Source: Flavobacterium sp. SLB02 (GTDB lineage Bacteria > Bacteroidota > Bacteroidia > Flavobacteriales > Flavobacteriaceae). Taken from it: DNA of 64,000 bases. Made by a program: the position numbers and the translations under genes. Shown here piece by piece: positions 5,021-26,393 of this stretch. Under the pieces are notes generated by a model. The model did not search any database. It worked only from the letters and a program-made list of their open reading frames with translations, and was not told where the DNA came from. Position 1 is the stretch's first letter, and each line of letters starts with the position of its first letter. Location: positions 5,558,565-5,622,564 of the forward strand of contig NZ_CP045928.1 in NCBI RefSeq assembly GCF_009664855.1. The letters are read 5' to 3'.

Positions 5021-7693
5021 TTAAAATTCATAGTTTAGGCTTGTTCCAAATGAAATAGTGGCAATTTTTGATAAAATTTTATTGTCATAAGCATCATAAT
5101 AATAGGGTTTAAGATTTAAAAAGTTAGTTGCATATAATGAAGCACTGAAACCATTTAAAAAATCTTTGGAAACTCTTAAATGAAGGTTATGAAGTATGTT
5201 TGGTATCTTAGATTGAGTTTCATTTCTTACTTTAATTAAATGCCCATATTTTTGAATATTAGTCCTGTCTTCAACAGGAATTTCGTGATAAACAAGTTCT
5301 GAGTCTAAATATCCATTAGGAAAATTACTAGTTTGGGTTTTAGTATTCTGTAATAAAACATGTTCCGTTCTCATCGAAATCAATAATCCAACAGCAGGTA
5401 TATGATAATTAAAATTAAAGCTAGTTGTGAAGCTATCCATTATGCCATCTTGTGGATTGTAAACTCCGTATCTTTCAGCAGAAGTAAGACTTGAAGAAGA
5501 TTCGTATTCTTTAACATCTGAAAAATCTTTTGTATGCGTGTATGAAGCATTCATGCTTACATCCAAATTAAGAGATTTAATTTTTTTGAAATTTATGGTA
5601 GTTTCTACACCAGTATCTTCTGAACTACGGTCATTTGTTAGACTGTTATTCATGTAGTAAAATTTTTCAGTGCCAACAATGTTGTAGTTTGGAATTTCTG
5701 TACCGGTTACAATGATTTCGGCTTTTGGAATTACTCTATATACAGGGACTTTTTGACCAGAAAAACCATTATAAAGCTTATTATAATATCCGGTTAAATT
5801 AATAGAGGCAAAAGGTAATTTTATATCTAATCCAGCTTCTGTTCGATATGCCTTACTTGGCTTTAGGTTTAAATTGTCGCCGGGAGTTATGATAGTTTGA
5901 ATCCAGGCTTTTTGATAAACACCCGGATAAGTATAAATACCACTTCCAATTAATTTATCTATATAACGATCTCCAGTGTATAGTTGGTTTAAAGACGGAG
6001 CTTTTGATGAAAGGCCTAATCCTGCACGTAATCTAAATGTTTCATTAAGTGTATACGATGAATTTATACGGGGCTGTAATGAAATGTTTCCCATTTGATT
6101 ATCAAATCGTACTCCTAAATCAAGATTTAATATTCGTTCGTCTTTAAATTTTTTAAATATTCTGTCTTCGAAATAAGTAGAAATTTGATATTCTGTTTTT
6201 GAGTTAGTAAAGCTATAGTCTCTAAAACCAATTGTGCTGTTTCCTTCTCTCGAAAGAGTATAAAAATTTAACATTTCCTGGGTAGCATTTTTTCGTCCTT
6301 CACCTCTGTTTACGCTTGTTCTGTGCGAAACTCCAAGAACCAGACTGTGAATCCAATTCGATTTATTTGTTAGTGTTTTTGTAGTTTCAAGAGTGAAAAA
6401 TGTTGAAATAGGAATACCTTCTACTGTACTTATACTAGTATATTGTGATGGAACAATATTTGCCTCATGTATTCCTTCTTCTTGAGAATCAGTTGCTGCC
6501 GAAGGTGAAGTATTCATCCATTTATCTCTTCTGGAAAATTGTCGGTCATAGCTAAGACTTGCATTTACATTAATTCCGTCAACCCATAAGTTTTTGGGTT
6601 TCCACATTAAATTATTTGAAATAGAAAAACCTTTTTTCTCGTTTTTTATGACTTGAGCGCTGATATCATCCGGATCACTTTTAGAGTTATCAAGATTCAT
6701 TCGAAATGAAGTATTTACCGTGTTTTTTATAGTAGCATCATTATTCTTATATTGCCAGGATATGTTTCCGTTTATTCTTTCATAATTCAAAATATTGTCT
6801 CTCGGATCAGCTTTAGAATCGAGATAATTAATTCCAAAATTCATCGAATTATTTAAATTGAATTTTACTCCTTTTGTCAAATTAAGTTCGGATGTAGCAT
6901 CTCTGATGGACGCATAAACCCGGTAAGGACTATTTCCTACCTTTGTTGTTATTAAAACAAGACCCGAAGTTAAATCACCATACTTTGCAGAAGGAATTCC
7001 CTGGATAACTTTTATTTCTTCAATATTATTAGTAGATATTTCTCTTAAATCAACTCCTCTATTTGTATTCGTAAAAGTGTTTCCTTTTATACCAAAATCA
7101 TCTGCAAGACCTGAATTTGGATTTAAGGCCTGCATATTCTCGTTGTTAGAAATAGGAATGTCATTCATTACAAATGAAGTTCCAAAAGCCTTATTTGCGT
7201 TAGAAGCTGACAATTTTGAGGCAGTACGAAAAACTATATTCTTGAATTCATTTAAATTAAAATCTGTTGTAGTCTGCCCCGGAAGCTGCTTCAAAACATC
7301 ATCTAACGAAAAAGCCTGCACATTGTTAATAGCATTAGTCCCCAATGTTAATTCAGAATATTGGCGTTGCTTATTAGCAGTAACCACAACTTCTTTAAGA
7401 CGAAGTGTATTGTCTTCTAAAGAAACTGTAATAAAATTTTCGGTGTTTTTTAAACTAATATTAGACTCCATTTTTCCAAGTAGAGAAAAGTTCAGTGCTA
7501 TATCTTCAAAATAAGGAATCGTAATCGTAAACTTTCCCTCTTTGTCAGAAATACTCCAGTTATCAGACTTTGTATCCCGAATAAATACTCCCGATAAAGA
7601 AGTTGAGGATTCTTTATCTATGACTTTACCCGTAATAACTCTTTGAGAGAAAACAGAACCCGAGAGAAAAAGGAAAAATAAAATAAAACGCAT
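5021..7693 (-). CDS. TonB-dependent receptor (first gene of the DUF4876 operon)
   Basis: An outer-membrane active transporter of 890 aa that takes energy from TonB-ExbBD. It has a signal peptide (MRFILFFLFLSGSVFSQ), a carboxypeptidase-regulatory-like domain at about 20-100 (VITGKVIDKESSTSLSG), a plug domain at about 100-240 (VVVTANKQRQ as TonB box region, VIQGIPSAKYGDLTSGLV near its end) and then the 22-strand barrel ending in FGTSLNYEF. The substrate is unknown; a di-haem peroxidase in the same operon makes a metal or redox-linked substrate possible. A good promoter lies at 7726-7755. The operon runs 7693 to 939 with gaps of 2-16 bases. Confidence 0.95.
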   Translation of the reverse strand: MRFILFFLFLSGSVFSQRVITGKVIDKESSTSLSGVFIRDTKSDNWSISDKEGKFTITIPYFEDIALNFSLLGKMESNISLKNTENFITVSLEDNTLRLKEVVVTANKQRQYSELTLGTNAINNVQAFSLDDVLKQLPGQTTTDFNLNEFKNIVFRTASKLSASNANKAFGTSFVMNDIPISNNENMQALNPNSGLADDFGIKGNTFTNTNRGVDLREISTNNIEEIKVIQGIPSAKYGDLTSGLVLITTKVGNSPYRVYASIRDATSELNLTKGVKFNLNNSMNFGINYLDSKADPRDNILNYERINGNISWQYKNNDATIKNTVNTSFRMNLDNSKSDPDDISAQVIKNEKKGFSISNNLMWKPKNLWVDGINVNASLSYDRQFSRRDKWMNTSPSAATDSQEEGIHEANIVPSQYTSISTVEGIPISTFFTLETTKTLTNKSNWIHSLVLGVSHRTSVNRGEGRKNATQEMLNFYTLSREGNSTIGFRDYSFTNSKTEYQISTYFEDRIFKKFKDERILNLDLGVRFDNQMGNISLQPRINSSYTLNETFRLRAGLGLSSKAPSLNQLYTGDRYIDKLIGSGIYTYPGVYQKAWIQTIITPGDNLNLKPSKAYRTEAGLDIKLPFASINLTGYYNKLYNGFSGQKVPVYRVIPKAEIIVTGTEIPNYNIVGTEKFYYMNNSLTNDRSSEDTGVETTINFKKIKSLNLDVSMNASYTHTKDFSDVKEYESSSSLTSAERYGVYNPQDGIMDSFTTSFNFNYHIPAVGLLISMRTEHVLLQNTKTQTSNFPNGYLDSELVYHEIPVEDRTNIQKYGHLIKVRNETQSKIPNILHNLHLRVSKDFLNGFSASLYATNFLNLKPYYYDAYDNKILSKIATISFGTSLNYEF

Positions 7694-7725
7694 TGTCTTT
7701 AATTAGAATCAATAAAAATAATGCG

Positions 7726-7755
7726 CAAATCTATCAATAATTCTTTGTGAAGCAA
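7726..7755 (-). promoter_or_regulatory. Promoter of the TonB receptor/DUF4876 operon
   Basis: On the minus strand a TTG (7753-7755) is followed after 19 bases by TAGATTTG (7726-7733), an exact match to the Bacteroidota primary-sigma form TTG-N19-TAnnTTTG. It lies 33 bases before the receptor start codon. Confidence 0.7.
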
Positions 7756-8002
7756 TGAAAAATAAGGGGATTGTGAAATAGTGAAGACTTCAATTTGTCA
7801 GAATAAGATATTCAGTATAATTCTGAAATTTTAGGTTAAAGTGTTGATAGACAGTTGGATGATGTTTTGGTGGTTTTGTAAGTACAACGGGTTAACTTTT
7901 TTTTGGTAAGATGTAGGTTTGATGTATTCTGAAGCAGAATATTTCTTGTTAATTCATTTGATTTTTTCGCTTCAGCTCAAGATTTTCTAAAGATTGGACA
8001 TA
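7756..8002. other. Intergenic stretch with no recognised gene
   Basis: Between the receptor promoter and the gpsA terminator there is AT-rich sequence without a credible reading frame, repeat or RNA gene. It may carry regulatory sites for the receptor operon, but none is recognisable by eye. Confidence 0.5.
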
Positions 8003-8041
8003 AAAAAAGAGTCAGGAAATTTATATTTCCTGACTCTTTTT
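8003..8041 (-). terminator. Terminator after gpsA
   Basis: Perfect 17-base arms (AAAAAGAGTCAGGAAAT and its complement) around a 4-base loop, with T runs on both strands. It lies about 60 bases past the gpsA stop on the minus strand. Confidence 0.85.
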
Positions 8042-8098
8042 TATTTTTATCCTAATAAGATATAAGCTTTAAAACCGCAATTGATACTGCGACTAAAC

Positions 8099-9094
8099 TT
8101 AATCCAAAGATTCTGTTAGTTTTTTAAACACAGTTTTAGCATCTTTTCCTTCATATAAAATAGCGTAAACAGCATCTATAATTGGCGTTTTTGCTCCGTA
8201 ACCCTGATTAAGTTTATAAGCACTTTTTGTAGCATAATAACCTTCGGCAACCATACTCATCTCCATCATGGCACTTTTTACGGTATAACCTTTTCCAATC
8301 ATGTTTCCGAACATTCTGTTTCTCGAAAATACAGAATATCCCGTAACCAATAAATCGCCTAAATAAGCCGAATCATTGATGTTACGTTTCATTTTATGTA
8401 CTTTTTTGATGAATTTTTTCATCTCACGAATTCCGTTACTCATCATAACCGATTGAAAGTTATCTCCGTAACCCAAACCATGCGCAATTCCGGCTGCGAT
8501 TGCATAAATATTTTTAAGCATTGCAGCATATTCGGTACCAATAATATCATCAGAAATTTTGGCTTTGATGTAATTTCCGGACAATGTTTTAGCAACAACT
8601 TTTGCCTTATCAGGATCGCCACAAGCAATAGTTAAGTACGAAAGCCTTTCTAATGCTACTTCTTCAGCATGGCAAGGACCTGTAATAACCCCAATGTTGT
8701 AATATGGAATGTCGTATTGAATATGAAAGTGTTCTCCAACAATTAAACTCGTCTCAGGAACAATTCCTTTAATGGCCGAAAAGATAATTTTATCAGATAA
8801 AGAAACTGTTAAATGCTTTAATTCAGCATCTAAGAAAGCAGACGGAATAGCAAAAATTACATAATCTGCATATTCGACCGCTTCGTTTATATTGTTGGTT
8901 AATTTAAGTTTTGCGATATCAAATTCAACCGAACTTAAATAATTTGGATTGTGTTTGTATTTCTGAATGTGCTCGATCGCAGCATCATTGCGCATATACC
9001 AGGCAATTTCTGAAAGATTCACGCATAACATTTTTGCAATTGCCGTAGCCCAGCTTCCTCCTCCAATTACTGCAAATTTTAGATTTTCGCTCAT
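8099..9094 (-). CDS. gpsA: Glycerol-3-phosphate dehydrogenase [NAD(P)+]
   Basis: A cytoplasmic enzyme that reduces dihydroxyacetone phosphate to sn-glycerol 3-phosphate for phospholipid synthesis. At 331 aa it has the family's normal length. The N-terminal Rossmann motif VIGGGSWATAIAK (about residues 9-21) is followed by VIFAIPSAFL, the GPCHAEEV segment, and the catalytic lysine in EYAAMLKNIYAIAAG. The C-terminal helical domain carries GDLLVT and NRMFGNMIGKG as expected. It is a single gene with its own promoter (9113-9144) and terminator (8003-8041). Confidence 0.96.
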   Translation of the reverse strand: MSENLKFAVIGGGSWATAIAKMLCVNLSEIAWYMRNDAAIEHIQKYKHNPNYLSSVEFDIAKLKLTNNINEAVEYADYVIFAIPSAFLDAELKHLTVSLSDKIIFSAIKGIVPETSLIVGEHFHIQYDIPYYNIGVITGPCHAEEVALERLSYLTIACGDPDKAKVVAKTLSGNYIKAKISDDIIGTEYAAMLKNIYAIAAGIAHGLGYGDNFQSVMMSNGIREMKKFIKKVHKMKRNINDSAYLGDLLVTGYSVFSRNRMFGNMIGKGYTVKSAMMEMSMVAEGYYATKSAYKLNQGYGAKTPIIDAVYAILYEGKDAKTVFKKLTESLD

Positions 9095-14097: not shown

Positions 14098-15003
14098 ATG
14101 GTAAATCTCGAATGGTACAGAACATTTAAAGCGGTTTATAAAAACGGAAATTTTTCTATCGCTGCAAAAGAGTTGTTTATGAGCCAGCCTGCAGTGAGCC
14201 AGCAAATCTCTATGCTGGAAGCTCATGTTGGAAACAAATTGTTTAACCGAAAGTCAAAGGGCGTAGAACCAACGGAATACGCTAAGTTACTGAATAATTT
14301 GATCATTGATGCGCTCGATCGTCTTGAAAATGTAGAGAATACTTTTAGGGCAAAGGCAGAGGACGCAAACAGATTAATTTCGGTGGGTATTTCGAAAGAT
14401 CTTTTTAATTGTATTGGGAATCTGTTGATCTCTAAATTTGATTTGATCGATTTTACCTTTGCAGACAACGATGCACTTTTTGCGCTTGTCGATGCCAAAA
14501 AACTTGATTTCGCCATCACCACAAAAGGTTTTGATACGTTTGACACCATTTATGAAATCGTCGGAAAAATTAAACTGATTATGGTGGCGCCGATAGGTTT
14601 GGATGCTACGGAATTTCGTCAGAAATTAAAAGCAGACAATTTTACTGAATTAGAACTATGGCTCAACGAACAAAAATGGTACAGTCACGATGCCAGAATT
14701 CCGCATATAAAATTGTTCTGGCTGCATGCTTTTAATAAAAAACGACCATCTATGGTGCCTAATTATATTATTCCGTCAGAATCTGAAATGCTTAGAATGT
14801 TGTCAGATAATGAAGGAGTAGCCATCACCTGGAATTGTAATGCGAGAAAATATATTAAAGAGAATAAATTGCAATTATTATGGAATAGTTTTCATGTACC
14901 GGAAGAATACGTTTATTTATTAACTGCTAAAAATAACAATCTGAATTCTTTCTTTGATATTATTTCTAAAGAATTAAAGTTGTTTTTTGGTAATAGATTA
15001 TAA
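14098..15003 (+). CDS. LysR-family transcriptional regulator
   Basis: A DNA-binding regulator of 301 aa. The winged helix-turn-helix is at about residues 3-62 (NFSIAAKELFMSQPAVSQQI, LFNRKSKGVEPT), followed by a linker helix and a two-lobed effector domain. The gene is divergent from the DJ-1-like gene with an 85-base gap, the classical LysR arrangement, so that gene (and perhaps yqhD) is the likely target. Possible effectors are reactive aldehydes, which is inferred from the targets only. The C-terminal domain is somewhat unlike canonical LysR substrate domains. Confidence 0.92.
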   Translation: MVNLEWYRTFKAVYKNGNFSIAAKELFMSQPAVSQQISMLEAHVGNKLFNRKSKGVEPTEYAKLLNNLIIDALDRLENVENTFRAKAEDANRLISVGISKDLFNCIGNLLISKFDLIDFTFADNDALFALVDAKKLDFAITTKGFDTFDTIYEIVGKIKLIMVAPIGLDATEFRQKLKADNFTELELWLNEQKWYSHDARIPHIKLFWLHAFNKKRPSMVPNYIIPSESEMLRMLSDNEGVAITWNCNARKYIKENKLQLLWNSFHVPEEYVYLLTAKNNNLNSFFDIISKELKLFFGNRL

Positions 15004-15008
15004 TTTTT

Positions 15009-15165
15009 TAGCCACAAAATCTTTTTTTGGGCCACGAATTCCATGAATTAGCACTAATTCTTTGTGGTTAAAAAGTTAGCCACAGATTAAAAGATTCTCA
15101 CAGATTCGAAATCATTTTAATCTTTTAATCTGTGGCAAAATAATAATTCGATAAAATTAGTGCAA
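15009..15165. repeat. Dispersed repeat, 'GCCACAGATTAAAAGATT' type, copy 1
   Basis: An imperfect inverted repeat built of GCCACAGATTAAAAGATT and AATCTTTTAATCTGTGGC, with CACGAATTCCATGAATT and TTAGTGCAATTCGT as outer elements. Related copies occur at 30677-30835 and 62255-62315. It fills the gap between the LysR gene and nrtR. Confidence 0.7.
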
Positions 15166-15191
15166 TTCGTCGTAAACTCTTTTTTTAAGTT

Positions 15192-15884
15192 ATGGAAAAT
15201 TTACAAAATATTAGAATCGCCGTTGATGCCATTGTTTTTGGATATAAAAACAACGGTTTATATGTTCTTTTAATCGAACAAAAATTTGGCTCTGCCGATA
15301 AATATTGGGCTTTACCAGGCGGATTAGTAAAAAATGATGAATCGCTGAGCGATGCGGTGATACGCGAATTGCACGAAGAAACAAATGTGCAGCTTACTTT
15401 TATGGAGCAGTTGTACACTTTTGGAGATGATATTTGCAGGGATTCCAGAAACCGTGTTATATCTGTTGCTTATTATGCTTTGGTAGACGCTTCGAATCTG
15501 GAAATCAAAGCCGATACGGATGCTGAAAAAGTACAATGGTTTAAAATAGATGAAATCCCGTCTTTGGCATTTGATCATAATTTAATTCTTGAAACAGCCA
15601 TTAAAAGATTAAAAGCAAAACTAACCTATGAGCCAATTGGTTTCGATTTACTTCCGGAGGAATTTTTGTTTTCCGACCTTGAAAACCTTTATTGTACCAT
15701 TTTAGAAAAAGAAATTGACCGACGAAACTTTAGAAAAAAAATCCTTAGTTATGGCTTTTTAGATCAAACAGAACATTTTTCTCCTATAAAAAGCGGTCGT
15801 CCAGCAAAACTTTTTAAGTTTAATAATTTGAAATACAATGAATTAATTAAAAAAGGTTTTCACTTCGAAATAAAGTTTGCGTAA
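15192..15884 (+). CDS. nrtR: NrtR-type Nudix-related transcriptional regulator of NAD metabolism
   Basis: A 230-aa protein with an N-terminal Nudix domain (about 1-140) and a C-terminal winged helix domain (about 150-225). The family senses ADP-ribose or related NAD metabolites and represses NAD genes. The Nudix box is complete, G44-x5-E50-x7-R58-E59-L-x-E62-E63, with only the usual glycine after it changed to Asn65, so hydrolase activity may be retained. The C-terminal part has the family hallmarks DRRNFRKKIL and GRPAKLFKF. It sits directly upstream of a prs-like gene, and two palindromes that look like its operators lie at 15876-15948. The first overlaps its own stop codon. Confidence 0.9.
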   Translation: MENLQNIRIAVDAIVFGYKNNGLYVLLIEQKFGSADKYWALPGGLVKNDESLSDAVIRELHEETNVQLTFMEQLYTFGDDICRDSRNRVISVAYYALVDASNLEIKADTDAEKVQWFKIDEIPSLAFDHNLILETAIKRLKAKLTYEPIGFDLLPEEFLFSDLENLYCTILEKEIDRRNFRKKILSYGFLDQTEHFSPIKSGRPAKLFKFNNLKYNELIKKGFHFEIKFA

Positions 15885-15896
15885 TTTTTACACAAA
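15876..15896. promoter_or_regulatory. Candidate NrtR operator O1 (imperfect)
   Basis: TTTGCGT-N7-ACACAAA: the same 21-bp layout as the perfect site at 15928-15948, with one mismatch in the right arm. It covers the nrtR stop codon. The centre-to-centre distance to O2 is 52 bases, close to five helical turns, so two regulators would bind on the same face of the DNA. Confidence 0.55.
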
Positions 15897-15901
15897 ATAA
15901 A

Positions 15902-15931
15902 TTGTTTATTTAAAATTTAACTCTACATTTG
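15902..15931 (+). promoter_or_regulatory. Promoter of the prs-like gene / NAD island
   Basis: TTG (15902-15904), a 19-base spacer and TACATTTG (15924-15931) match the Bacteroidota consensus exactly. The -7 element shares its TTTG with the left arm of the palindrome O2, so a repressor bound there would block the promoter. Confidence 0.75.
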
Positions 15932-15948
15932 CGTATAATTAACGCAAA
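15928..15948. promoter_or_regulatory. Candidate NrtR operator O2 (perfect palindrome)
   Basis: TTTGCGT-N7-ACGCAAA, a perfect 7+7 inverted repeat around ATAATTA. It overlaps the promoter -7 element and the presumed transcription start, and ends 11 bases before the prs-like start codon. The nearby nrtR gene makes NrtR the obvious ligand. Confidence 0.75.
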
Positions 15949-15959
15949 CTATAAAAGCT

Positions 15960-16787
15960 ATGATACTTAACCTAGACCCAAAATTCACTCCGATACTTAA
16001 TCAGGAAGAAATCAAATTTCAAAGTTTTACATTTTCTGGAGGAGAACCTCACATTAAAATCAATCCTGATTTTGATCATAATGAAAAAGTAACCATCACA
16101 CACCGTTTAAATTCATTCAACGATTTAGGATTGTTGTGTATCACGGTAGATGCTCTACGCAGAATGGATGTTAAAGTAATCGACTTGTTTATTCCGTATT
16201 TCCCGGCTGCAAGACAGGATCGTGTGATGATCAAAGGAGAATCTTTATCTGTAAAAGTATATGCGGATATCATCAACGGACTTCAATTGAATAAAGTTTT
16301 TGTTTTTGATGCCCATTCTGAAGTTACTCCGGCATTGGTAAACAACTGCGAAGTGATTCCGAATCATACTTTTATTCAACAAGTTCTAAAAGTTACAGGC
16401 GAAAACGTAAAACTAATTTCTCCGGATGGTGGTGCTTTGAAGAAAATCTACAAAGTTTCTGAATTTTTAGGCGGAGTTGATGTTGTGGAATGCAGTAAAA
16501 GCAGAGATGTAAAAACCGGAAAATTATCTGGATTTAAAGTATACGAAGACGACCTAAACGGCATAGATTGTTTAATTGTGGATGACATTTGCGATGGCGG
16601 CGGAACTTTTGTTGGCTTAGCCGAAGAATTAAGAAAGAAAAATGCCGGCAAATTATACTTAGCCGTAAGTCACGGAATCTTCAATAAAGGATTTGAAGTT
16701 TTAGATTGTTTTGACAAGATATTCACCACCAATTCTTTTAAAGATTTCGAAAATGAAAAGGTTGAGGTTGTAAAATTAGAATTATGA
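15960..16787 (+). CDS. Prs-like pyrophosphokinase (ribose-phosphate diphosphokinase family)
   Basis: A cytoplasmic protein of 275 aa, about 40 residues shorter than housekeeping PRPP synthetases. Core motifs are kept: IPYFPAARQDR (RQDR at 85-88), the DAHSE version of the ATP/Mg site (117-121), SPDGGALKK, and the PRPP-type loop VDDICDGGGT (207-216). The loop that holds the 5'-phosphate normally reads DTxGT; here it is DGGGT. The C-terminal end is missing. It may make PRPP for the NadV-like enzyme at 24924, or it may act on another sugar phosphate such as ADP-ribose, as the phage NARP1 ADP-ribose pyrophosphate synthetases do. It is the first gene behind the NrtR operators. Confidence 0.85.
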   Translation: MILNLDPKFTPILNQEEIKFQSFTFSGGEPHIKINPDFDHNEKVTITHRLNSFNDLGLLCITVDALRRMDVKVIDLFIPYFPAARQDRVMIKGESLSVKVYADIINGLQLNKVFVFDAHSEVTPALVNNCEVIPNHTFIQQVLKVTGENVKLISPDGGALKKIYKVSEFLGGVDVVECSKSRDVKTGKLSGFKVYEDDLNGIDCLIVDDICDGGGTFVGLAEELRKKNAGKLYLAVSHGIFNKGFEVLDCFDKIFTTNSFKDFENEKVEVVKLEL

Positions 16788-17790: not shown

Positions 17791-18126
17791 ATGAGTGATG
17801 ATTTAAAACCAAGATTCATTGAATCTTTAAAAAGAAACAATGATCAGATTAGAGAAGACAGAGCCAAAACAATTGGTGAGGATTCTGAATTAATTTACAG
17901 ACGCCGTGTTGAAGATATTGAACTAAAAATAAAAAGATTAGAAAGAGAACAAGAAGGACTTATCGATATTAGTCCGCTGGATAAAAACAGTTTGACTTTT
18001 GCTGATTTTCAACCCGAAGCATTTGTGCAGAGAGATATGGAATTGTCATTGACAATTAGGAATTTAAACATTCAGTTTGAAGTGACAAAAAAGAGATTCG
18101 AATATTTATTTGGTAAAACATTTTAG
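17791..18126 (+). CDS. Small charged coiled-coil protein (111 aa), partner of the VWA protein
   Basis: I do not recognise a family. The protein is highly charged, has no signal peptide and is predicted largely helical, with a likely coiled coil at about residues 33-55 (DIELKIKRLEREQE) and a second helix at 80-105. The stop codon is 2 bases before the next start, so it is translationally linked to the VWA-like gene at 18129. Such a pair suggests an adaptor and its platform protein. It sits inside the NAD/ADP-ribose island but has no visible link to nucleotide chemistry. Confidence 0.75.
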   Translation: MSDDLKPRFIESLKRNNDQIREDRAKTIGEDSELIYRRRVEDIELKIKRLEREQEGLIDISPLDKNSLTFADFQPEAFVQRDMELSLTIRNLNIQFEVTKKRFEYLFGKTF

Positions 18127-18128
18127 TT

Positions 18129-19004
18129 ATGGGAGGTACAAGATATGACTTAGGCGCTCGTTTGAGCAGAGCAACAGCAGCAGGTTACGGATCTAAATCT
18201 GCGGGAGAGATTTTTACGCAAAATTCTTTACGAATGGCGCACGAATCTATGAATCCAAACGGTATTACGTTTAGAGAAGCAAGAGATTCAGAAGTGCATC
18301 CTAATACAGTTCCAATTATTTTAGGACTGGATGTTACGGGAAGTATGGGACACATCCCGCACGAATTAATCAAAGATGGTCTTCCTAAATTAATGGGGGG
18401 AATTATTCAGGGCGGTGTTCCGGATCCGGCACTTTTGTTTGTAGGAATTGGAGATCATGAATGCGACAGATATCCGCTTCAGGTAGGACAATTCGAATCT
18501 GGAGATGAAGAACTGGATATGTGGCTGACCAGAACTTATATTGAAGGCGGAGGAGGAGGAAATGCAGGAGAAAGCTATTTATTAGCCTGGTATTTTGCCG
18601 CTTTTCATACTAAAACCGATGCTTTCGAAAAAAGAGGTCAAAAAGGATTGTTGTTTACCGTGGGTGATGAACCTAATTTAGAAACACTTCCGGCATCTGC
18701 CATAAAAGAAATTATGGGTCAGGGACAGCAAACCTATACGCATCTTGAATTATTAAAAGAAGCGCAAAAACGTTACGAAGTATATCACATTAGTGTATTG
18801 CATTCTGATCAGGCTGTAAGAGCGAATGTAGCGTGGAAAGAGTTACTGGGACAAAATTGTTTGTCTATCGAAGATCACAAAGAAATCCCGAATGTGATCA
18901 AGAAAATCATTTGCGATAAACATAAAAATTCAGGATTAGGTTTAGGAACAATACCAGTTTCTGATACAAATGATACAGGTTTAGATAATATACAAATGCT
19001 TTAA
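18129..19004 (+). CDS. Von Willebrand factor A-like protein with MIDAS motif
   Basis: A 291-aa cytoplasmic protein without signal or membrane segment. A MIDAS-type metal site is visible as DVTGS (Asp68, Thr70, Ser72), preceded by strand VPIILGL. The glycine run GGGGG near residues 139-143 and later VGDEP could supply the other metal contacts. The start MGGTRYDLGARLSRA is unusually glycine- and arginine-rich. VWA domains of this soluble type normally act as binding platforms for multi-protein complexes, often with AAA+ ATPases; none is next to it here. It follows its 111-aa partner by 2 bases. A repeat element separates it from the PurA-like gene. Confidence 0.78.
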   Translation: MGGTRYDLGARLSRATAAGYGSKSAGEIFTQNSLRMAHESMNPNGITFREARDSEVHPNTVPIILGLDVTGSMGHIPHELIKDGLPKLMGGIIQGGVPDPALLFVGIGDHECDRYPLQVGQFESGDEELDMWLTRTYIEGGGGGNAGESYLLAWYFAAFHTKTDAFEKRGQKGLLFTVGDEPNLETLPASAIKEIMGQGQQTYTHLELLKEAQKRYEVYHISVLHSDQAVRANVAWKELLGQNCLSIEDHKEIPNVIKKIICDKHKNSGLGLGTIPVSDTNDTGLDNIQML

Positions 19005-19007
19005 ATT

Positions 19008-19146
19008 AAACGCATAGAAACATAGGTTTTTGTTTGTGAATAAAAGAAAAAAAAAGAAACTAGTTTCTAACACATAGTGACTATGTGAATTTAAACTAGT
19101 GAAACGCCTTTTTTAAGCTTTGAAAGTCTATGATTCTATGTGTTTA
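19008..19146. repeat. Dispersed repeat, 'CATAG...GAAACGCCTTTTTTAAGC...CTATGTGTT' type, copy 1
   Basis: An element of about 140 bases with inverted ends (CATAGAAACATAG and CTATGATTCTATGTG) and the inner core GAAACGCCTTTTTTAAGC at 19101-19118. A second copy in the same orientation is at 62321-62457, with the core identical over at least 18 bases (62414-62431). It occupies most of the gap between the VWA and PurA-like genes. Confidence 0.75.
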
Positions 19147-19171
19147 AAATAATTGCGTAACAGTTAAAAAA

Positions 19172-20254
19172 ATGAAAACAGCACAGATAGTTATAGGTTT
19201 AGGATTTGGTGATGAAGGAAAAGGAATTACAACAGATTTTCTGGCGAAGCAAAATCCTGAATCTATAGTTATTCGGTTTTCAGGAGGACAGCAAGCGGCA
19301 CATACGGTTATGATTGGCGATAAAAAACACGTTCATTCAAGTTTTGCCAGCGGCGCACTTCGCGGTTTACCTTCTTATTATAGTGAACATTGCACTATTC
19401 ATCCGGTTTTTTTATTCAATGAAAAAAAGGAACTCGAAGAATTAGGCGGAAACACGGAACTACACATTCATCCATTAGCCAAAATCACAACGCCATTTGA
19501 TGTTTGGCAAAACCGAACTAACGTCAGGAATCTGGATAACGGAACTTGTGGCAAAGGAGTTGGAGCCACAATGAAACGGAATGAAGGCCAGTACAAATTA
19601 TTCGCCATAGACCTCATTGCTCCCCGCCAAATGCTTTTAGCAAAACTGGAAAAGATAGCCTATTACTACGGTTTTCTGAATGAAAGTGAAATCGACGAAG
19701 AAGTCAGTCATTTCCTTGAAGTGATTGATGAAATAAAATGGAACATTAGTGATTACAGCTTTTTAGAAAACTACCAGAATCTTATTTTCGAAGGAAGTCA
19801 AGGGATTTTACTCGACATGGATCATGGCGTTTTCCCAAATGTAACGTACGCCAATACAACATCTAAAAATGCATTTGAGATCTGTCAAAAATTACAAATT
19901 GAAAATATCGAAATGTATTATGTAACCAGAAGTTATGCAACCCGACACGGAAGTGGCTGGATGAGTAACGAAAGGGAATTAAAATTAAAAAATAACGAAG
20001 AAGAAACCTGCGTTTACAATGACTTTCAGAAAGAATTGCGAACCGGCGATTTAGATTATGATCTTTTAAATTATAGTTTAAAGCTCGATGCAGCTTATAG
20101 TCCAAAAGCCAGAAGAAATTTGATTGTAACCTGTATGGATCAGATCGAAATGGATTATGAATTTGAAAAGTTAACGACGGAGTTTACTGAAATCCACGGA
20201 TCATTTTCACCCGATTCTAAAGATTTTAAGCAGTTGACTTCTTTGTTTCAATAA
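19172..20254 (+). CDS. Divergent adenylosuccinate synthetase (PurA) paralog
   Basis: A 360-aa member of the PurA fold family; housekeeping PurA is about 425-430 aa. Catalytic elements are recognisable: GFGDEGKG with Asp14, His44 in the AAHTV segment, GTCGKGVGATMK (124-135), FEGSQGILLDMDHG (206-219) and TRSYATRHGSG. The guanine-recognising TKxD motif is replaced by TCMD (320-323), and the C-terminal ~65 residues, including the TTTxxR aspartate loop, are missing or rewritten. PurA joins aspartate to IMP using GTP; this paralog probably has another nucleotide donor or acceptor. The context of NAD/ADP-ribose genes, starting 9 bases before a NADAR gene, suggests a nucleotide or dinucleotide substrate. 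Confidence 0.82.
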   Translation: MKTAQIVIGLGFGDEGKGITTDFLAKQNPESIVIRFSGGQQAAHTVMIGDKKHVHSSFASGALRGLPSYYSEHCTIHPVFLFNEKKELEELGGNTELHIHPLAKITTPFDVWQNRTNVRNLDNGTCGKGVGATMKRNEGQYKLFAIDLIAPRQMLLAKLEKIAYYYGFLNESEIDEEVSHFLEVIDEIKWNISDYSFLENYQNLIFEGSQGILLDMDHGVFPNVTYANTTSKNAFEICQKLQIENIEMYYVTRSYATRHGSGWMSNERELKLKNNEEETCVYNDFQKELRTGDLDYDLLNYSLKLDAAYSPKARRNLIVTCMDQIEMDYEFEKLTTEFTEIHGSFSPDSKDFKQLTSLFQ

Positions 20255-20262
20255 AGAGAAAA

Positions 20263-20790
20263 ATGAAATATACTATAGAAAATATACCTCCGGAAAATAA
20301 ATTTTTATTTTTCTGGGGACACCAACCCAATAAAGACGGAAGCATTTCTAAAACCTGTTTTAGTCAATGGTGGTTAAGCTCTTTTGAAGTCGACAACGTG
20401 ACTTACAAAACTGCAGAACACTGGATGATGGCTAAAAAAGCCGAATTGTTTAAAGATGATAAAATTTTGGAGAAAATCCTTCTGGCTAAATCTCCTGCGG
20501 AAGCCAAAAAATTTGGTAGAGAAGTAAAGAATTATAATGAAACCTTGTGGTTAGCAGCGAGATTTAATATTGTGAAAGAAGGCAATTTTCATAAATTCAG
20601 TCAAAATCCGGAATTAAAAACTTTTTTACTCAATACTAATGACAGAGTCATAGTAGAAGCAAGTCCGGTCGACGCCATTTGGGGAATAGGAATGGCGGGT
20701 GATCACAAAGATGTTTTGAATCCTGCCAAATGGAAAGGCTTGAATTTGTTAGGTTTTGCTTTGATGGAAGTTAGGGATGAATTGAAATAA
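20263..20790 (+). CDS. NADAR domain protein (YbiA-like)
   Basis: A 175-aa NADAR (NAD and ADP-ribose associated) protein. The family fold is shown by [26 protein letters not shown] (Glu52 in the position of the conserved glutamate), [14 protein letters not shown], and the C-terminal [10 protein letters not shown] and [16 protein letters not shown] blocks. NADAR proteins are N-glycosidases; some remove ADP-ribose from guanine in DNA and others act in riboflavin or ADP-ribose metabolism. It follows the PurA-like gene by 8 bases and precedes the macro-ADP-ribosylglycohydrolase gene by 7, so the three are one transcriptional unit. Confidence 0.92.
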
Positions 20791-20797
20791 ATTAATA

Positions 20798-22255
20798 ATG
20801 AAAATAGAAATCCTTAAAGCCGATATAACAGAAATTAAAGTGGATGCAATTGTAAATGCAGCGAATACGTCTTTGCTTGGCGGAGGAGGAGTTGATGGTG
20901 CAATTCATAGAAAAGGAGGAAAAGCTATTTTAGACGATTGCGTTAAAATTCGAAATAAGCAAGGAGGCTGTAAAGTTGGAGATGCCGTGATTACAACAGC
21001 TGGAAATTTACCGGCAAAATATGTGATTCATACCGTTGGTCCGGTTTGGAATAATGGTAAAAGTCTTGAAGAAGAATTATTGGAAAGCTGTTATTTACGT
21101 GTGTTGGAATTAGCGGTTGATAATAATATCAAAACTATTGCTTTCCCTAATATAAGTACGGGTATATATAAATTCCCAAAAGAATTAGCTGCAGAAATTG
21201 CAATTAATACGATCTCTGTTTTTGAACCCGGAGAACAATTCGAAAAAATCATTTTTGTTTGTTATGATGATGAAAATTTCAAAATTTATAATAACATAAT
21301 AGAAAGCGATTTTGAGTACAAGATTAAATCTGGTTTGTTTGGAGTCGCAGTTGGTGATGCTCTAGGTGTTCCGGTTGAATTCAAAACAAGAGATACTTTA
21401 AGAGAAAATCCTGCTTTGGATATGATGGGTTATATGTGCTGGAACCAGCCTCCGGGAACCTGGAGCGATGATAGCTCATTAACTTTTTGTACCGCAGAAA
21501 GTTTGTCTAAAGGTTATGACATAGAAAATATGGCGCTGCTTTTTGTTAAATGGATGCAGGAAGGATATTGGGGAGCGCATCATAAAGTATTTGATATAGG
21601 TGGTTCTACAAGATATTCTTTAGCAAGAGTGGTGCAGGGAGAATCTGCCAGGTTTTCAGGTAATTTCTTTGCAGAAGATAACGGAAATGGTTCCCTGATG
21701 AGAATTTTACCTTTAGCTTTTTATCTTCAAAAGCAGACTGAGATCGAAATTATTTACAAAAAAGTAAAAGAAGTATCTTCTATCACTCATGCTCATTTCA
21801 GATCCGGATTTGCCTGTTTTATCTATGTGGTGTATTGTTTAGAAATTTTAAAAGGCACTGATAAAGTAGAAGCGTATAAAAATATGCAAAAGATTGTTTC
21901 TGATTTTTTAAGTGATAAGCAATTTAATTTTTCTGAAATTCAGTTGTTTGATAGGATTTTAAAAAATAATATAACGGACTATCCTGAAAATGAAATTGAA
22001 TCATCGGGTTATGTTCTTCATAGTTTGGAAGCGAGTTTCTGGTGTTTTCTAAATTGGAATTCTTATGAAGACACTGTTTTAAAAGCAGTGAATTTAGGCG
22101 GAGATACAGATACAACTGCAGCAATTACAGGAGGTTTGGCAGGAATGTATTACGGAATTGAAAATATTCCCCAAAAGTGGATTTTGGCATTAGCAAGAAA
22201 AAACGATATTGATGATTTGTGCGAGCGATTGTCTTTAAAGTTGAAAAAAATGTAA
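20798..22255 (+). CDS. Macrodomain - ADP-ribosylglycohydrolase fusion protein
   Basis: A 485-aa protein with two ADP-ribose hydrolase folds. Residues 1-170 are a YmdB/MacroD-type macrodomain ([18 protein letters not shown] at 20-37, [12 protein letters not shown]), which removes ADP-ribose from acidic residues or O-acetyl-ADP-ribose. Residues 175-485 are a DraG/ARH domain ([17 protein letters not shown], metal ligands in SDDSS at 223-227 and GGDTDTT at 434-440). Both active sites look intact. The fusion should release free ADP-ribose from two types of linkage. It is followed by a repeat-filled gap of 148 bases. Confidence 0.94.
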
Positions 22256-22344: not shown

Positions 22345-22373
22345 TCAGTTCAAATTATAATTAAAAAATAAAA

Positions 22374-22397
22374 ACACACAATGAAGATATTGTGTGT
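22374..22397 (+). promoter_or_regulatory. Hairpin in the leader of the DUF4291 gene
   Basis: Perfect 9-base arms ACACACAAT and ATTGTGTGT around a 6-base loop, ending 6 bases before the DUF4291 ATG at 22404. A seven-codon reading frame (ATG at 22381) runs through it and its TAA overlaps that ATG. It could hamper or couple translation of the downstream gene. Confidence 0.4.
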
Positions 22398-22403
22398 AAA
22401 ATA

Positions 22404-23006
22404 ATGAAAATAGAATTAAAAAAATATGATGAGCAAATAATAGAATGGCCAAAATCAGGCTATCACATTATGGCTCAATATGACGAGGAAGAAATAATAG
22501 TGTATCAATCCTATAGAAAAGAAATAGGTGAATTTGCTGTAAAAAATCAGTTTTTTGCAGGAGAATTTAGCCTTACCAGAATGACCTGGATTAAACCCAA
22601 TTTTCTTTGGATGATGTACAGAAACGGCTGGGGAACTAAAGAAGGGCAATAAGTTGTTTTGGCGATTCATCTTAAAATAGCAGCATTCAATAAATACCTA
22701 AAAAATGCAGTTTACTCGTATTATGATCCGTCACTCGGTATAAGTCGTGAAGAATGGCAAGATGAGGTGAAAACATCGTCAGTAAGATTACAATGGGATC
22801 CCGAACAGGATCTGTTTGGAAATAAGTTAGAACGAAGAGCCATTCAGATTGGTTTAAGAGACGATTTTATAAAGTCTTTTGCAAAAGAACAATATCATTT
22901 TGTTCAAGATGGTCAATTAGAAAAATTAGTAGTTCCTGCTGAAAAGCCATTAGTATTTAAGGATGAAGAACTCAATAAAAAAATAAAAATTTCAGAGAAA
23001 TCATGA
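22404..23006 (+). pseudogene. DUF4291 family protein interrupted by an in-frame TAA stop
   Basis: Read through one stop codon, this is a DUF4291 protein of about 200 codons, the family's usual length. The first part (YDEEEIIVYQSYRKEIGEF, MTWIKPNFLWMMYRNGW) and the second (VRLQWDPEQDLFG, RRAIQIGLRDDF) are in the same frame and join exactly where the family runs on, at the GQExVLAI segment. The stop is TAA at 22650-22652, where the family has a glutamate, so a single GAA-to-TAA change explains it. The second half could still be made by restart at TTG 22659. Its end overlaps the kptA start (ATGA), so the operon structure is intact and the lesion looks recent. The function of DUF4291 is unknown. 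Confidence 0.82.
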
Positions 23007-23551
23007 ATGAAAAAATAGCAAAAACAGTGAGCAAATTTCTAAGTTTAGTACTTAGACATTCTCCAGAAAAAATAGGATTAAAACTAGACGAAAATGGCTG
23101 GGCAGATGTAGAAGAACTAATTGTGAAATGTTCTCAAAAAGGAAACAAATTAGATGCTGTTCTTTTAGATTACGTAGTAGAAAATAACGATAAAAAACGT
23201 TTCGCCTTTAATGAAGATAAAACGAAAATCAGAGCAAGTCAGGGACATTCGATTTCGGTTGAATTGAATTTACCAGAAACAGAACCTTCAGAATATTTGT
23301 ATCACGGAACGATTGGAAAGTTTATGGACAACATTCAGAAAGAAGGTTTGAAAAAAATGAGCCGCCAGCACGTACATCTTTCAAAAGATAAAGAAACGGC
23401 CATAAGAGTAGGAAGCAGACGTGGTGCTCCTCAGATTCTAACGGTAAGAAGCGGTGCTATGCACAGAGACGGATTTAAATTTTATTTGTCTGAAAATAAT
23501 GTTTGGTTAACAGATGAGGTTCCGGCGAAGTATATCGAATTTAAATCGTGA
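23003..23551 (+). CDS. kptA: RNA 2'-phosphotransferase (Tpt1/KptA family)
   Basis: A cytoplasmic 182-aa enzyme that moves an internal RNA 2'-phosphate to NAD+, giving ADP-ribose 1''-2'' cyclic phosphate and nicotinamide. The N-terminal winged helix carries FLSLVLRHSPEKIGL with the catalytic Arg18-His19. The C-terminal ADP-ribosyltransferase-like fold carries YHGT, HVHLSKDKETA and VGSRRG. The start overlaps the DUF4291 stop by ATGA. Bacteria seldom have tRNA substrates for it, so its place among ADP-ribose enzymes suggests RNA repair or a NAD-linked task. Its nicotinamide product would feed the NadV-like enzyme downstream. Confidence 0.95.
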   Translation: MNEKIAKTVSKFLSLVLRHSPEKIGLKLDENGWADVEELIVKCSQKGNKLDAVLLDYVVENNDKKRFAFNEDKTKIRASQGHSISVELNLPETEPSEYLYHGTIGKFMDNIQKEGLKKMSRQHVHLSKDKETAIRVGSRRGAPQILTVRSGAMHRDGFKFYLSENNVWLTDEVPAKYIEFKS

Positions 23552-23603: not shown

Positions 23604-24164
23604 ATGGTAGCCATTATTAATGAAGCAACAGAAATTTATACAATCAATAATTTTCTTACGATTGATGAGTGTAATAAGTTGATAGAAAAAAGCGAACAAG
23701 TCGGTTTTCAGGAAGCAGAAATAAATATTGATGGAGCACAAAAAATGATAAAAATGGTACGCAATAACGAACGTATCATGTATCAAGATGAAGAGTATGC
23801 ATCTTTTTTATGGCAAAAATTGCAGCCTTATATTAAGTCTGAAGTAGGAAACAGTTTCGCTACGGGATTAAATGAAATGTTCAGGTTTTATAAGTATAAT
23901 CCGGGTCAACGTTTTAAAATGCATCGTGACGGAAGTTATAAGCGCAGTGAATCTGAATTTAGTTATTATACATTTCTCATTTATTTGAATGATAGATATG
24001 AAGGCGGAGAAACAAAATTTGCTTCGGGTGAAATTATTACGCCCAAAACCGGAACAGCGCTTATTTTTGAACACAGTCAACGTCATGAAGGATCGGCTTT
24101 GATTTCTGGAATAAAGTATGTTTTAAGAAGTGATGTTATGTATAAACTTAAAAACAACATCTAA
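23604..24164 (+). CDS. 2-oxoglutarate/Fe(II)-dependent oxygenase, prolyl 4-hydroxylase type
   Basis: A 186-aa double-stranded beta-helix oxygenase. The iron triad is visible as His107 and Asp109 in MHRDGS and His161 in RHEG. The 2-oxoglutarate-binding basic residue is probably Lys171 or Arg175 in KYVLRSDVMY. The segments FLIYLND and YEGGETKF are typical of P4Hc proteins. It would hydroxylate or demethylate a protein or nucleic acid side group, consuming O2 and 2-oxoglutarate. It lies between kptA and a phosphatase gene with short gaps (52 and 3 bases). The substrate is not predictable from sequence. Confidence 0.9.
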   Translation: MVAIINEATEIYTINNFLTIDECNKLIEKSEQVGFQEAEINIDGAQKMIKMVRNNERIMYQDEEYASFLWQKLQPYIKSEVGNSFATGLNEMFRFYKYNPGQRFKMHRDGSYKRSESEFSYYTFLIYLNDRYEGGETKFASGEIITPKTGTALIFEHSQRHEGSALISGIKYVLRSDVMYKLKNNI

Positions 24165-24167
24165 CTG

Positions 24168-24899
24168 ATGAAAAGAACTTTAGTTTTTGGAGATATTCAT
24201 GGTGGATTAAAAGCATTAATTCAGTTATTAGACAGAATTGATTATTCAGAAAATGACCGATTTATTTTTCTGGGAGATTATGTCGATGGCTGGAGTGAAT
24301 CGGCACAATTGCTTGACTTTCTGATTGATTTATCCCAAAAACAGGAATGCATTTTTATAAGAGGTAATCATGATGTTTGGTGTCACGAATGGCTGAAGAA
24401 CGATATTATAAACGATATTTGGTTTTTGCACGGAGGAAAATCAACTATAGAAAGTTATCAGGACGTTGATCTTTTGGCAAGAAAAAAACATTGTGATTTT
24501 TTTGAAAGCATGAAAGATTATTTTGTGGATGAAAATAATAATTTGTTTATTCACGCAGGATTTTCGTCTATGCATGGTCCGGACAAGGAACATTACAAAA
24601 CAAATTATTCCTGGGACAGGACCCTTTGGGAAATGGCTCTGACAATGGATAAGCGAATACAAAAAGATTCACTTTCTTATCCTAAAAGATTATTGCTTTA
24701 TAATGAGATTTACATTGGCCACACACCAACGCTTCATTATAATATAGAGATTCCAATGCAAGGTTGCAATGTCTGGAATATTGATACCGGAGCAGGTTTT
24801 TATGGTAAATTAACCGGTCTTGATGTCGAAACAAAAGCATTTTGGCAAAGTGATGCAGTAGAATCCTTTTATCCAAAAGAAAAAGGAAGAAATAAATAA
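24168..24899 (+). CDS. Calcineurin-like metallophosphatase (serine/threonine phosphatase / ApaH-like)
   Basis: A 243-aa two-metal phosphoesterase. All motifs are present in order: GDIHGG (Asp9, His11), GDYVDG (Asp37), GNHD (66-69), a HAGFS block and GHTPT near residue 183. The family includes PP2A-like protein phosphatases, the diadenosine tetraphosphatase ApaH and Pnkp-type RNA repair phosphatases, and the short inserts do not decide between them. It begins 3 bases after the oxygenase stop and ends 24 bases before nadV. In this setting a dinucleotide, ADP-ribose phosphate or RNA 2',3'-cyclic end is the most attractive substrate, but this is inference. Confidence 0.9.
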   Translation: MKRTLVFGDIHGGLKALIQLLDRIDYSENDRFIFLGDYVDGWSESAQLLDFLIDLSQKQECIFIRGNHDVWCHEWLKNDIINDIWFLHGGKSTIESYQDVDLLARKKHCDFFESMKDYFVDENNNLFIHAGFSSMHGPDKEHYKTNYSWDRTLWEMALTMDKRIQKDSLSYPKRLLLYNEIYIGHTPTLHYNIEIPMQGCNVWNIDTGAGFYGKLTGLDVETKAFWQSDAVESFYPKEKGRNK

Positions 24900-24923: not shown

Positions 24924-26393
24924 ATGAACACATTACTATTAACAGACGGTTACAAAGTTGACCACAGAAGACAATACCCAGACAAAACCACATTAGTATA
25001 TTCTAACTGGACGCCTAGAAAATCAAGAATCGAAGGACTTGATGAGGTCGTGTTTTTTGGATTGCAATATTTTATCAAGAAATATATTATTCATGATTTT
25101 GATACATATTTCTTCAAACAGCCAAAAGAAGAAGTGGTTAAAAAATACGCACGCCGAATCAATAATTATTTAGGTGAAAACCAGGTTGGGACAAAACATA
25201 TCGAAGATTTACACGATTTAGGATATATCCCGATGGTTTTTAAAGCTTTGCCGGAAGGAGTAAGCGTACCTTTGAGAGTGCCAATGTTTACGATGTACAA
25301 TACGATTCCGGAATTTTTCTGGTTGACGAATTATTTCGAAACTCTACTTTCAGCAGTAGTTTGGTTGCCTTGTAACTCTGCTACAATTGCGAAAGAATAT
25401 AGAAAAGTATTAGACAAATATGCTGATGAAACGTCCTCTGTTCCTGAATTTGTAGACTGGCAGGCACATGATTTCTCAATGAGAGGAATGGGTGGAATAG
25501 AAGCGGCAATAACTTCTGCAGCAGGACATTTGTTAAGCTTTACAGGTTCTGATACAATTCCGGTAATTGATTTCTTCGAAGAATATTACAATGCCAATTC
25601 AGATACTGAATTAATCGCAGGTTCAGTTGCCGCAACAGAGCATTCTGTAATGTGCATGGGAACTACCGAAGGCGAATGCGAAACGTTCAAAAGATTAGTG
25701 ACAGAAGTTTATCCAAAAGGAATCGTTTCTATCGTTTCTGATACCTGGGATTTATGGAAAGTGCTAACGGACTATTTGCCAAGATTAAAAGAAGATATTG
25801 TTGCCAGAGAAGGTAAAGTTGTGATTCGTCCTGATAGCGGTGATCCGGTTGATATTATCTGCGGAAATCCAAACGGAAAAACCGAACAAGAGAAGAAAGG
25901 TGTAATTGAGCTGCTTTGGGATGTTTTTGGAGGTACAACTAATGCAAAAGGATACAAAGAGCTTATTCCTCAAATTGGAGCTATTTACGGGGATAGTATT
26001 ACGGTAGCAAGAGCGATTCAAATTTGCGAGAGATTAAAAGAAAAAGGTTTCGCTTCGACCAATGTTGTTTTAGGAATTGGATCATTTACCTATCAATACA
26101 ATACCAGAGATACTTTTGGTTTTGCGATGAAAGCCACTTACGGAGAAGTGGATGGAGAAGGAAGAGCCATCTTCAAAGATCCAATCACAGATGACGGAAC
26201 TAAAAAATCTGCCAAAGGATTAATGAAAATCGACTTAATTGACGGTGTATATCATTTAACCGATAATGTTTCATGGGAAGAAGAAAAACAAGGGGAATTG
26301 AAAGAAGTTTTCAGAGACGGAAAACTTTTAGTAGATCAGTCTTTAAGTGATATTAGATCACGTGTTAAAAGTGATGTTAATATTGAAGCATAA
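24924..26393 (+). CDS. nadV: Nicotinamide phosphoribosyltransferase (NadV/NAMPT type)
   Basis: A cytoplasmic 489-aa enzyme of NAMPT length. NAMPT-type active-site residues are visible: HDFSMRG with Arg187, GSDT with Asp210 (the residue that favours nicotinamide over nicotinate), His240 in AATEHSVM, and IRPDSGDP with Arg302 and Asp304. It would join nicotinamide to PRPP giving NMN. The related phage NARP1 transferase instead uses ADP-ribose pyrophosphate and gives NAD+ directly. No NMN adenylyltransferase is in this operon. It is the last gene of the island, followed by repeats and a terminator at 26591-26616. Together with the Prs-like gene it brackets the island. Confidence 0.92.
   Translation: MNTLLLTDGYKVDHRRQYPDKTTLVYSNWTPRKSRIEGLDEVVFFGLQYFIKKYIIHDFDTYFFKQPKEEVVKKYARRINNYLGENQVGTKHIEDLHDLGYIPMVFKALPEGVSVPLRVPMFTMYNTIPEFFWLTNYFETLLSAVVWLPCNSATIAKEYRKVLDKYADETSSVPEFVDWQAHDFSMRGMGGIEAAITSAAGHLLSFTGSDTIPVIDFFEEYYNANSDTELIAGSVAATEHSVMCMGTTEGECETFKRLVTEVYPKGIVSIVSDTWDLWKVLTDYLPRLKEDIVAREGKVVIRPDSGDPVDIICGNPNGKTEQEKKGVIELLWDVFGGTTNAKGYKELIPQIGAIYGDSITVARAIQICERLKEKGFASTNVVLGIGSFTYQYNTRDTFGFAMKATYGEVDGEGRAIFKDPITDDGTKKSAKGLMKIDLIDGVYHLTDNVSWEEEKQGELKEVFRDGKLLVDQSLSDIRSRVKSDVNIEA

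Follow-up and report, generated by a model that had tools for sequence, protein, structure and literature searches.

Paired putative NrtR operators at the promoter of a predicted NARP1-like NAD+-rebuilding operon in Flavobacterium

The window, a 64-kb stretch of Flavobacterium sp. SLB02 DNA, contains an nrtR gene, two palindromic sites at a predicted promoter, and a long operon in which adps-like and namat-like genes enclose genes for ADP-ribose enzymes and accessory proteins. The features are as follows.

15192..15884, + strand: nrtR, coding for a 230-aa protein with a Nudix domain and an NrtR winged helix; the Nudix box is intact, GLVKNDESLSDAVIRELHEETNV
15876-15896, no strand: distal operator (predicted), TTTGCGTAATTTTTACACAAA, at about -60 to -40, overlapping the nrtR stop
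15902-15904, + strand: -33 element TTG, from the sequence; TTG lies 17–23 nt 5' of TAnnTTTG in 88 of 92 loci
15924-15931, + strand: -7 element TACATTTG (TAnnTTTG), whose TTTG forms the first four bases of the proximal operator
15928-15948, no strand: proximal operator (predicted), TTTGCGTATAATTAACGCAAA, at about -8 to +13, over a predicted start at about 15936
15960..16787, + strand: adps-like, 275 aa; assigned by model to the PRPP-synthetase family, and closer to the Adps of phage NARP1 than to the Prs of this genome
16798..17616, + strand: microbial-type PARG (family match)
17791..18126, + strand: 111-aa protein, no Pfam match, travelling with the next two genes
18129..19004, + strand: 291-aa protein, no Pfam or NCBIfam match ('vWA-like' as an impression only)
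19172..20254, + strand: adenylosuccinate-synthetase-like protein (PF00709, 8.6e-46)
20263..20790, + strand: NADAR-domain protein (family match, 4.2e-55)
20798..22255, + strand: Macro domain fused to ADP-ribosylglycohydrolase (family match)
22365..23006, + strand: DUF4291 gene, broken by an in-frame stop in this genome (model 67-150 and 1-63)
23003..23551, + strand: KptA/Tpt1 RNA 2'-phosphotransferase (family match, 3.6e-51)
23604..24164, + strand: 2OG-Fe(II) oxygenase-like protein (weak family matches)
24168..24899, + strand: metallophosphatase, ApaH/PNKP-phosphatase-like (weak family matches)
24924..26393, + strand: namat-like, 489 aa, with signature GSFTYQYNTRD; the last operon gene

The operon organization was compared in 124 Flavobacterium-group loci (44 of the 74 Flavobacterium loci and 80 loci of named relatives), 110 of them distinct; the nearest named relatives of the window's adps are Flavobacterium or Flavobacteriaceae (80 of 376 loci kept), with an adps gene also present in Flavobacterium johnsoniae CI04 (L167). 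The adps gene is first in all 124. Wherever namat was found (118 loci) it closes the operon on the same strand, the available sequence in the other six ending 0.4–10.7 kb past adps. The inner genes are variable, with NADAR present in 109, KptA in 95, Macro/ARH in 83 and PARG in 27 of the 124 loci, and in six loci (L055, L063, L065, L074, L076 and L077) the search for inner genes gave none. The three-gene cassette at 17791-20254, coding for the 111-aa, 291-aa and adenylosuccinate-synthetase-like proteins, comes and goes nearly as a block, its genes occurring in 54, 54 and 53 of the 124 loci (47, 47 and 46 of the 110 distinct ones).

NCBIfam names the first protein as a ribose-phosphate diphosphokinase and the last as a nicotinate phosphoribosyltransferase, which would fit the same operators and repressor acting on ordinary nicotinamide salvage, with a PRPP synthetase and a nicotinamide phosphoribosyltransferase producing NMN under NAD control. 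Early NrtR work (Rodionov 2008) reportedly tied NrtR to PRPP biogenesis, and this counts in the same direction. PRPP is also usable by Namat (PMC12774641). The sequences of the two flanking genes, however, point away from ordinary salvage. The Namat signature, GSX-phi-X-phi-X-phi-TRD (PMC12774641), is present as GSFTYQYNTRD or GSYTYQYNTRD in 116 of 118 loci, or 103 of 105 when only distinct ones are counted; both exceptions are short reading frames. The best solved matches of Namat are 9w5x and 9w5w at 611 bits, compared with about 240 for human Nampt; the 9w5x row tested lies letter for letter within SPbetaL1 Namat. The Adps of the window is 41%, 42% and 32% identical to the phage Adps proteins of JohannJBalmer, ctKR88 and SPbetaL1, respectively, the genes for which adjoin namat, versus 22% to the genome's own Prs, a separate protein with a much higher family score. 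DDICDGGGT is found in Adps at all 124 loci, and the motif D-x-HS[DE]VT, or E-x-HSDVT, stands in Adps where Prs has DLHADQIQG. Because the first gene resembles phage Adps and the last, downstream in the same operon, carries the Namat signature, the operon is by sequence NARP1 and not PRPP/NMN salvage, which we consider quite improbable; it looks like a bacterial NARP1-like operon (ADP-ribose and nicotinamide to NAD+) enclosing ADP-ribose-releasing enzymes. The first-pass annotation, whose interpretation is otherwise supported in part, missed that the controlled operon is of this Adps–Namat kind.

The nrtR product matches PF21906 (3.2e-22), PF00293 (1.4e-18) and PF19368 (9.3e-16), and has what marks the NrtR family, an N-terminal Nudix-like domain joined to an NrtR winged helix and a palindrome at an NAD-gene promoter near nrtR. 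It scores 131.7 bits against NF050029, the ADPR-repressor equivalog with a curated value of 400, and judged by this score is a relative of NF050029 rather than that equivalog. The best solved match is BtAraR (5bs6, 9.6e-44), with SoNrtR (3gz5) at 2.6e-24. The BtAraR match, and an AraR_C domain match, would suit a regulator of the same architecture that responds to a pentose or another nucleotide, as BtAraR does, and not to ADP-ribose. Arg41 of SoNrtR, which contacts an ADP-ribose phosphate, aligns with Gln30 of the window NrtR at a position that varies among orthologues, so that ADP-ribose is not guaranteed as the effector. Against a pentose, the operon contains ADP-ribose enzymes and lacks the pentose target genes of AraR/XylR sugar regulators, with no sugar-gene match among the operon proteins scanned, and the intact Nudix box would fit a nucleotide-diphosphate ligand; an effector other than ADP-ribose is thus unlikely.

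An unusual feature of this NrtR is the Nudix box itself. The pattern GX5EX7RExxEE is intact in all 91 readable orthologues (the 92nd row, L073, being unreadable), whereas a degenerate box, usual but not defining for the family, is stated for the characterised NAD regulators (PMC4666351 and PMC6800001), and all five NrtR-family paralogues of this genome lose the box in alignment. The solved family protein 2fml seems to keep it, so an intact box is not unique to this branch. Its presence in every readable orthologue suggests selection for catalysis. We note that in L073 (G258:C19) nrtR has an in-frame TGA, yet the locus retains the two adps operators as well as a perfect site in the nrtR promoter. 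Tandem NrtR-family genes at G000:C1:5524249-5525652 code for proteins that share 41% and 39% identity with NrtR and have degenerate Nudix boxes.

The first-pass annotation described two 21-bp palindromes, TTTGCGT-N7-ACGCAAA and TTTGCGT-N7-ACACAAA, with centres 52 bases apart, one over the nrtR stop and one over the -7 element, and a check of the sequence bears out every coordinate. The arms of the proximal site are perfect and the distal site has one arm mismatch, the centres lie at 15938 and 15886, respectively (a separation of 52 bp), and the nrtR TAA (15882-15884) falls inside the distal site. Flavobacterial sigma-A promoters have a TTG 17–23 nt before TAnnTTTG. The promoter here reads TTG-N19-TACATTTG, with its final four bases common to the first four of the proximal site, and among the 92 pairs the pattern holds for TTG in 88, for TA in 89 and for TTTG in all 92, the TTTG also belonging to the operator. 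Mapping in F. psychrophilum placed the TAnnTTTG box at -12 to -5 (consensus in PMC9723704), and the predicted start and the operator positions relative to it given above follow if that box position holds here. The proposal that this is a layout for repression gains from the geometry, in which the proximal site covers the -7 box and start and the distal site lies just 5' of the -33 element, and from the conserved spacing, and to that extent it stands. A separate inverted repeat, with arms at 15080-15096 and 15119-15135 (CCACAGATTAAAAGATT and its complement), is located immediately 5' of nrtR, close to the position of the nrtR operator copy in relatives from outside the window's clade; perhaps it is a repeat element that displaced the old promoter.

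The pair is widely conserved. An adps-like gene is present in 74 of 299 Flavobacterium genomes (this one included), and both sites are found upstream of it in 73 of the 74 loci when scored at up to five mismatches to TTTGYGTAANNNTTACRCAAA, most having 0–2; at the remaining locus, L078, the distal site has one extra base. Because near-identical genomes are among them, the 73 loci do not count as independent cases: they comprise just 14 different distal and 16 different proximal sequences. Variation in the proximal arms is nearly confined to the symmetric positions 5 and 17 (8 to 8 among the 16 distinct sequences), and the distal arms vary also at positions 3 and 19. The spacing in Flavobacterium is 51 bp in five loci, 52 in 59, 53 in six and 55 in three. 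Outside the genus, 19 of 21 loci have the pair (up to four mismatches per site) at 50, 51, 52 (15 loci), 53 or 54 bp, and two (L224 and L225) have one site only; over all 92 pairs the spacing is 52 bp in 74 and 50–55 bp in the rest. The sites are better conserved than the sequence between them, with a spacer 51% identical to that of the window versus 79% and 83% for the sites at the 15 outside loci with 52-bp spacing, and 45% versus 90% and 83% at ten divergent Flavobacterium loci. A Persicobacter plasmid (Cytophagales) carries nrtR, a site pair with 53-bp spacing, adps and namat in direct succession.

This conservation at 92 loci bears on the reading of the palindromes as chance repeats, RNA hairpins or a terminator. 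The distal site could fold weakly, but folding is no better than in shuffled sequences (z 0.05 and 0.74), which together with the lack of any Rfam match at 15000-16100 rules out an RNA structure or riboswitch, and neither site gives a terminator-like match; explanations of this sort are scarcely credible.

The sites are also rare. The two are the only matches to TTTGCGT-N7-ACGCAAA with up to one mismatch in the window, where none has two mismatches and the six with three are background (eight in total versus 5.27 +/- 2.42 in shuffles). The whole 6.36-Mb genome has one exact and two one-mismatch matches, the pair accounting for the exact match and for one of those with a mismatch, and 39 matches at up to two mismatches compared with 48 for a reversed control, which is again background. 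A refined consensus derived from the relatives, TTTGYGTA-N5-TACRCAAA (TTTGYGTANNNNNTACRCAAA), finds exactly the pair at up to one mismatch (control 0) and 20 matches, equal to the control's 20, at up to two. The detectable regulon here is therefore one promoter, and this search gave no wider regulon above background in the genome, although more degenerate sites could exist. Each of the 40 adps-bearing genomes searched (of 74) has two to four matches to the refined consensus at up to one mismatch (control 0 to 2); of 20 genomes drawn from the 225 without adps, seven have one match each, with control matches in 11 of the 20. The remark in the first-pass annotation that there is no third copy is correct for the window and its clade but fails beyond them.

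The distribution of nrtR links it to the sites. An orthologue (E <= 1e-75) is present in 73 of the 299 Flavobacterium genomes, and these are the adps-bearing genomes with the exception of G149, which is 76% complete and has a partial nrtR match. The gene immediately precedes adps in 68 of 74 loci; in the other six, 6.6–6.8 kb lies between them and both sites stay at adps, so the distal site is not kept merely as coding sequence for the NrtR end. That it is a by-product of the conserved NrtR C-terminus (FEIKFA-stop) is ruled out by these six loci and by the split regulon of G375, in which nrtR is about 460 kb from adps. One operator pair in G375 is at adps-Macro/ARH-namat, and a second, also 52 bp apart, is beside nrtR and before ADP-ribosylglycohydrolase and KptA genes; with one regulator and two unlinked, identically built promoters, this looks like a regulon. 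G556 and G331 are less clear, with nrtR on another contig, no site with up to three mismatches around it, and one site at adps. The insert between nrtR and adps in L091–L096 codes for a 399-aa protein resembling M48 peptidases and a protein of about 1800 aa resembling helicases, the latter with DUF4011, AAA_11/AAA_12 helicase, MTES_1575 and WGR domains (scanned in L091), and is possibly a defence module.

A further copy of the site precedes nrtR itself in 47 of 92 nrtR genes (up to three mismatches within 120 bp), compared with 38 hits in 9200 mononucleotide shuffles and none in 368 coding windows. No row of the window's clade has it (39 rows; SH-aLRT 100, quick tree), which rules it out as a universal feature, and the 91-row tree requires at least five changes. 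As the copy also occurs in other genera, loss is favoured over gain as the direction of change, and autoregulation of nrtR has probably been lost in the window's clade.

A different regulator might bind the pair, such as another of the NrtR-family proteins of this genome, which has five further genes of the family (E <= 1e-25). No site with up to two mismatches occurs in the stretches examined around those paralogues, however, and the pair co-occurs with nrtR of the window type, which has a site in its own promoter in the 47 genes noted above; we consider another binder very improbable. NrtR itself had been named as the binding protein from adjacency, and the choice is strengthened by co-occurrence, by the nrtR-promoter copies and by the sites retained where nrtR is distant or unlinked. 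On comparative sequence evidence, the paired sites are very probably where NrtR sits to repress the NAD+-rebuilding operon.

This arrangement does not extend to all bacterial NARP1 loci. The stretches examined around adps-namat on Paenibacillus and Arthrobacter plasmids contain neither an NrtR relative nor sites of this kind, and the adps-namat locus of a Curtobacterium plasmid (L257) has no such site in the stretch examined, so the link between NrtR and NARP1 is not general and these three plasmid loci lend no support to NrtR as a general regulator of bacterial NARP1. L257 does code for a weakly NrtR-like Nudix protein (7656-8297; 26% identity over residues 1-184, no winged-helix match) located 2.1 kb downstream, beyond adps-TerD-namat-NADAR, and this protein might, as a diverged regulator, serve another bacterial NARP1.

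We favour, with a probability of roughly 0.78, a reading in which the palindromes would be NrtR operators, NrtR would repress the adps-namat operon from both, and ADP-ribose would lift the repression. An NrtR dimer would occupy each site, the proximal one over the -7 box and start point and the distal one just upstream of the -33 element, and, with 52 bp corresponding to five helical turns, both would lie on the same face of the helix and jointly hold off RNA polymerase. Cleavage of NAD+ or removal of ADP-ribosyl groups would raise the level of ADP-ribose, which would then release NrtR. Release from DNA upon ADP-ribose binding is described for M. smegmatis NrtR, at the 50 mM needed (PMC6800001), and for the NrtRs of S. 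oneidensis and Synechocystis (as cited in PMC4666351). Adps would then convert ADP-ribose to ADPR-pyrophosphate, which Namat would join with nicotinamide to give NAD+, and the induced operon would release more ADP-ribose from modified RNA, DNA or protein by way of PARG, NADAR, Macro-ARH and the products of KptA. Since RNA ADP-ribosylation is elsewhere a target of bacterial PARG, macro, ARH and NADAR enzymes (PMC11833690), those of the operon may feed the same pool. ADP-ribose, in both releasing NrtR and feeding Adps and Namat, would make the inducer the pathway's substrate, and could serve at once as an alarm for NAD+ loss and as raw material for the response.

The intact Nudix box leads to a more tentative extension, about which we remain doubtful. 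If the box is kept for catalysis, this NrtR branch could both bind and hydrolyse ADP-ribose, so that the sensor might destroy its own signal. The operon would then be a self-timing switch, a host-owned, ADP-ribose-induced system of NAD+ rebuilding (bacterial NARP1 with de-ADP-ribosylating enzymes) that acts after NADase-based immunity or ADP-ribosylating toxins and turns off once the sensor and Adps have consumed the signal.

A full-text literature search found no paper with NrtR together with Namat, NARP1 or ADPR-PP, and no paper on the operator was found by title or abstract start, although Rodionov 2008 and Osterman 2024 may cover part of it. The paired sites suggest a way in which bacteria regulate a pathway described chiefly from the viruses that attack them, since an NrtR-family repressor with a conserved two-operator promoter would give NARP1 a switch, an expected inducer and co-regulated partner enzymes. 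They also offer an NrtR branch with an intact Nudix catalytic box, and the likely annotation as 'prs' and 'nadV' in such operons would be corrected.

Among known systems, the NrtRs of Mycobacterium smegmatis and Shewanella oneidensis (PMC6800001; 3gz5/3gz6) share with the window a Nudix domain with a winged helix and an N7-spaced palindrome (GTTTTCGA-N7-TCGAAAAC in mycobacteria; PMC6800001), as well as repression of NAD genes with release from DNA by ADP-ribose, both being predicted in our case; their self-repression is matched by the nrtR-promoter site of many relatives of the window. They differ in that the window arms are TTTGYGT, the two sites are mostly 52 bp apart and the target is an Adps–Namat ADP-ribose operon rather than nadABC, and in that the Nudix box is degenerate in MsNrtR and SoNrtR, with MsNrtR having a broken box and no detectable hydrolase activity (PMC6800001). 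The BtAraR/XylR branch of Bacteroides (PMC4666351) is the closest in solved sequence and has a 21-bp motif with tandem sites before an operon, but these are separated by 3 or 42 nt (by our calculation about 24 or 63 bp between centres, versus 52 bp), and BtAraR senses L-arabinose, controls sugar genes and has lost its Nudix box. The NARP1 systems of phage SPbetaL1 and Paenibacillus foliorum (PMC12774641) similarly have adps before namat, the Namat clamp signature and a PRPP-synthetase-like Adps, whereas in the window type as many as ten ADP-ribose and accessory genes lie between adps and namat, and these two are predicted to be under a dedicated repressor acting at paired operators.
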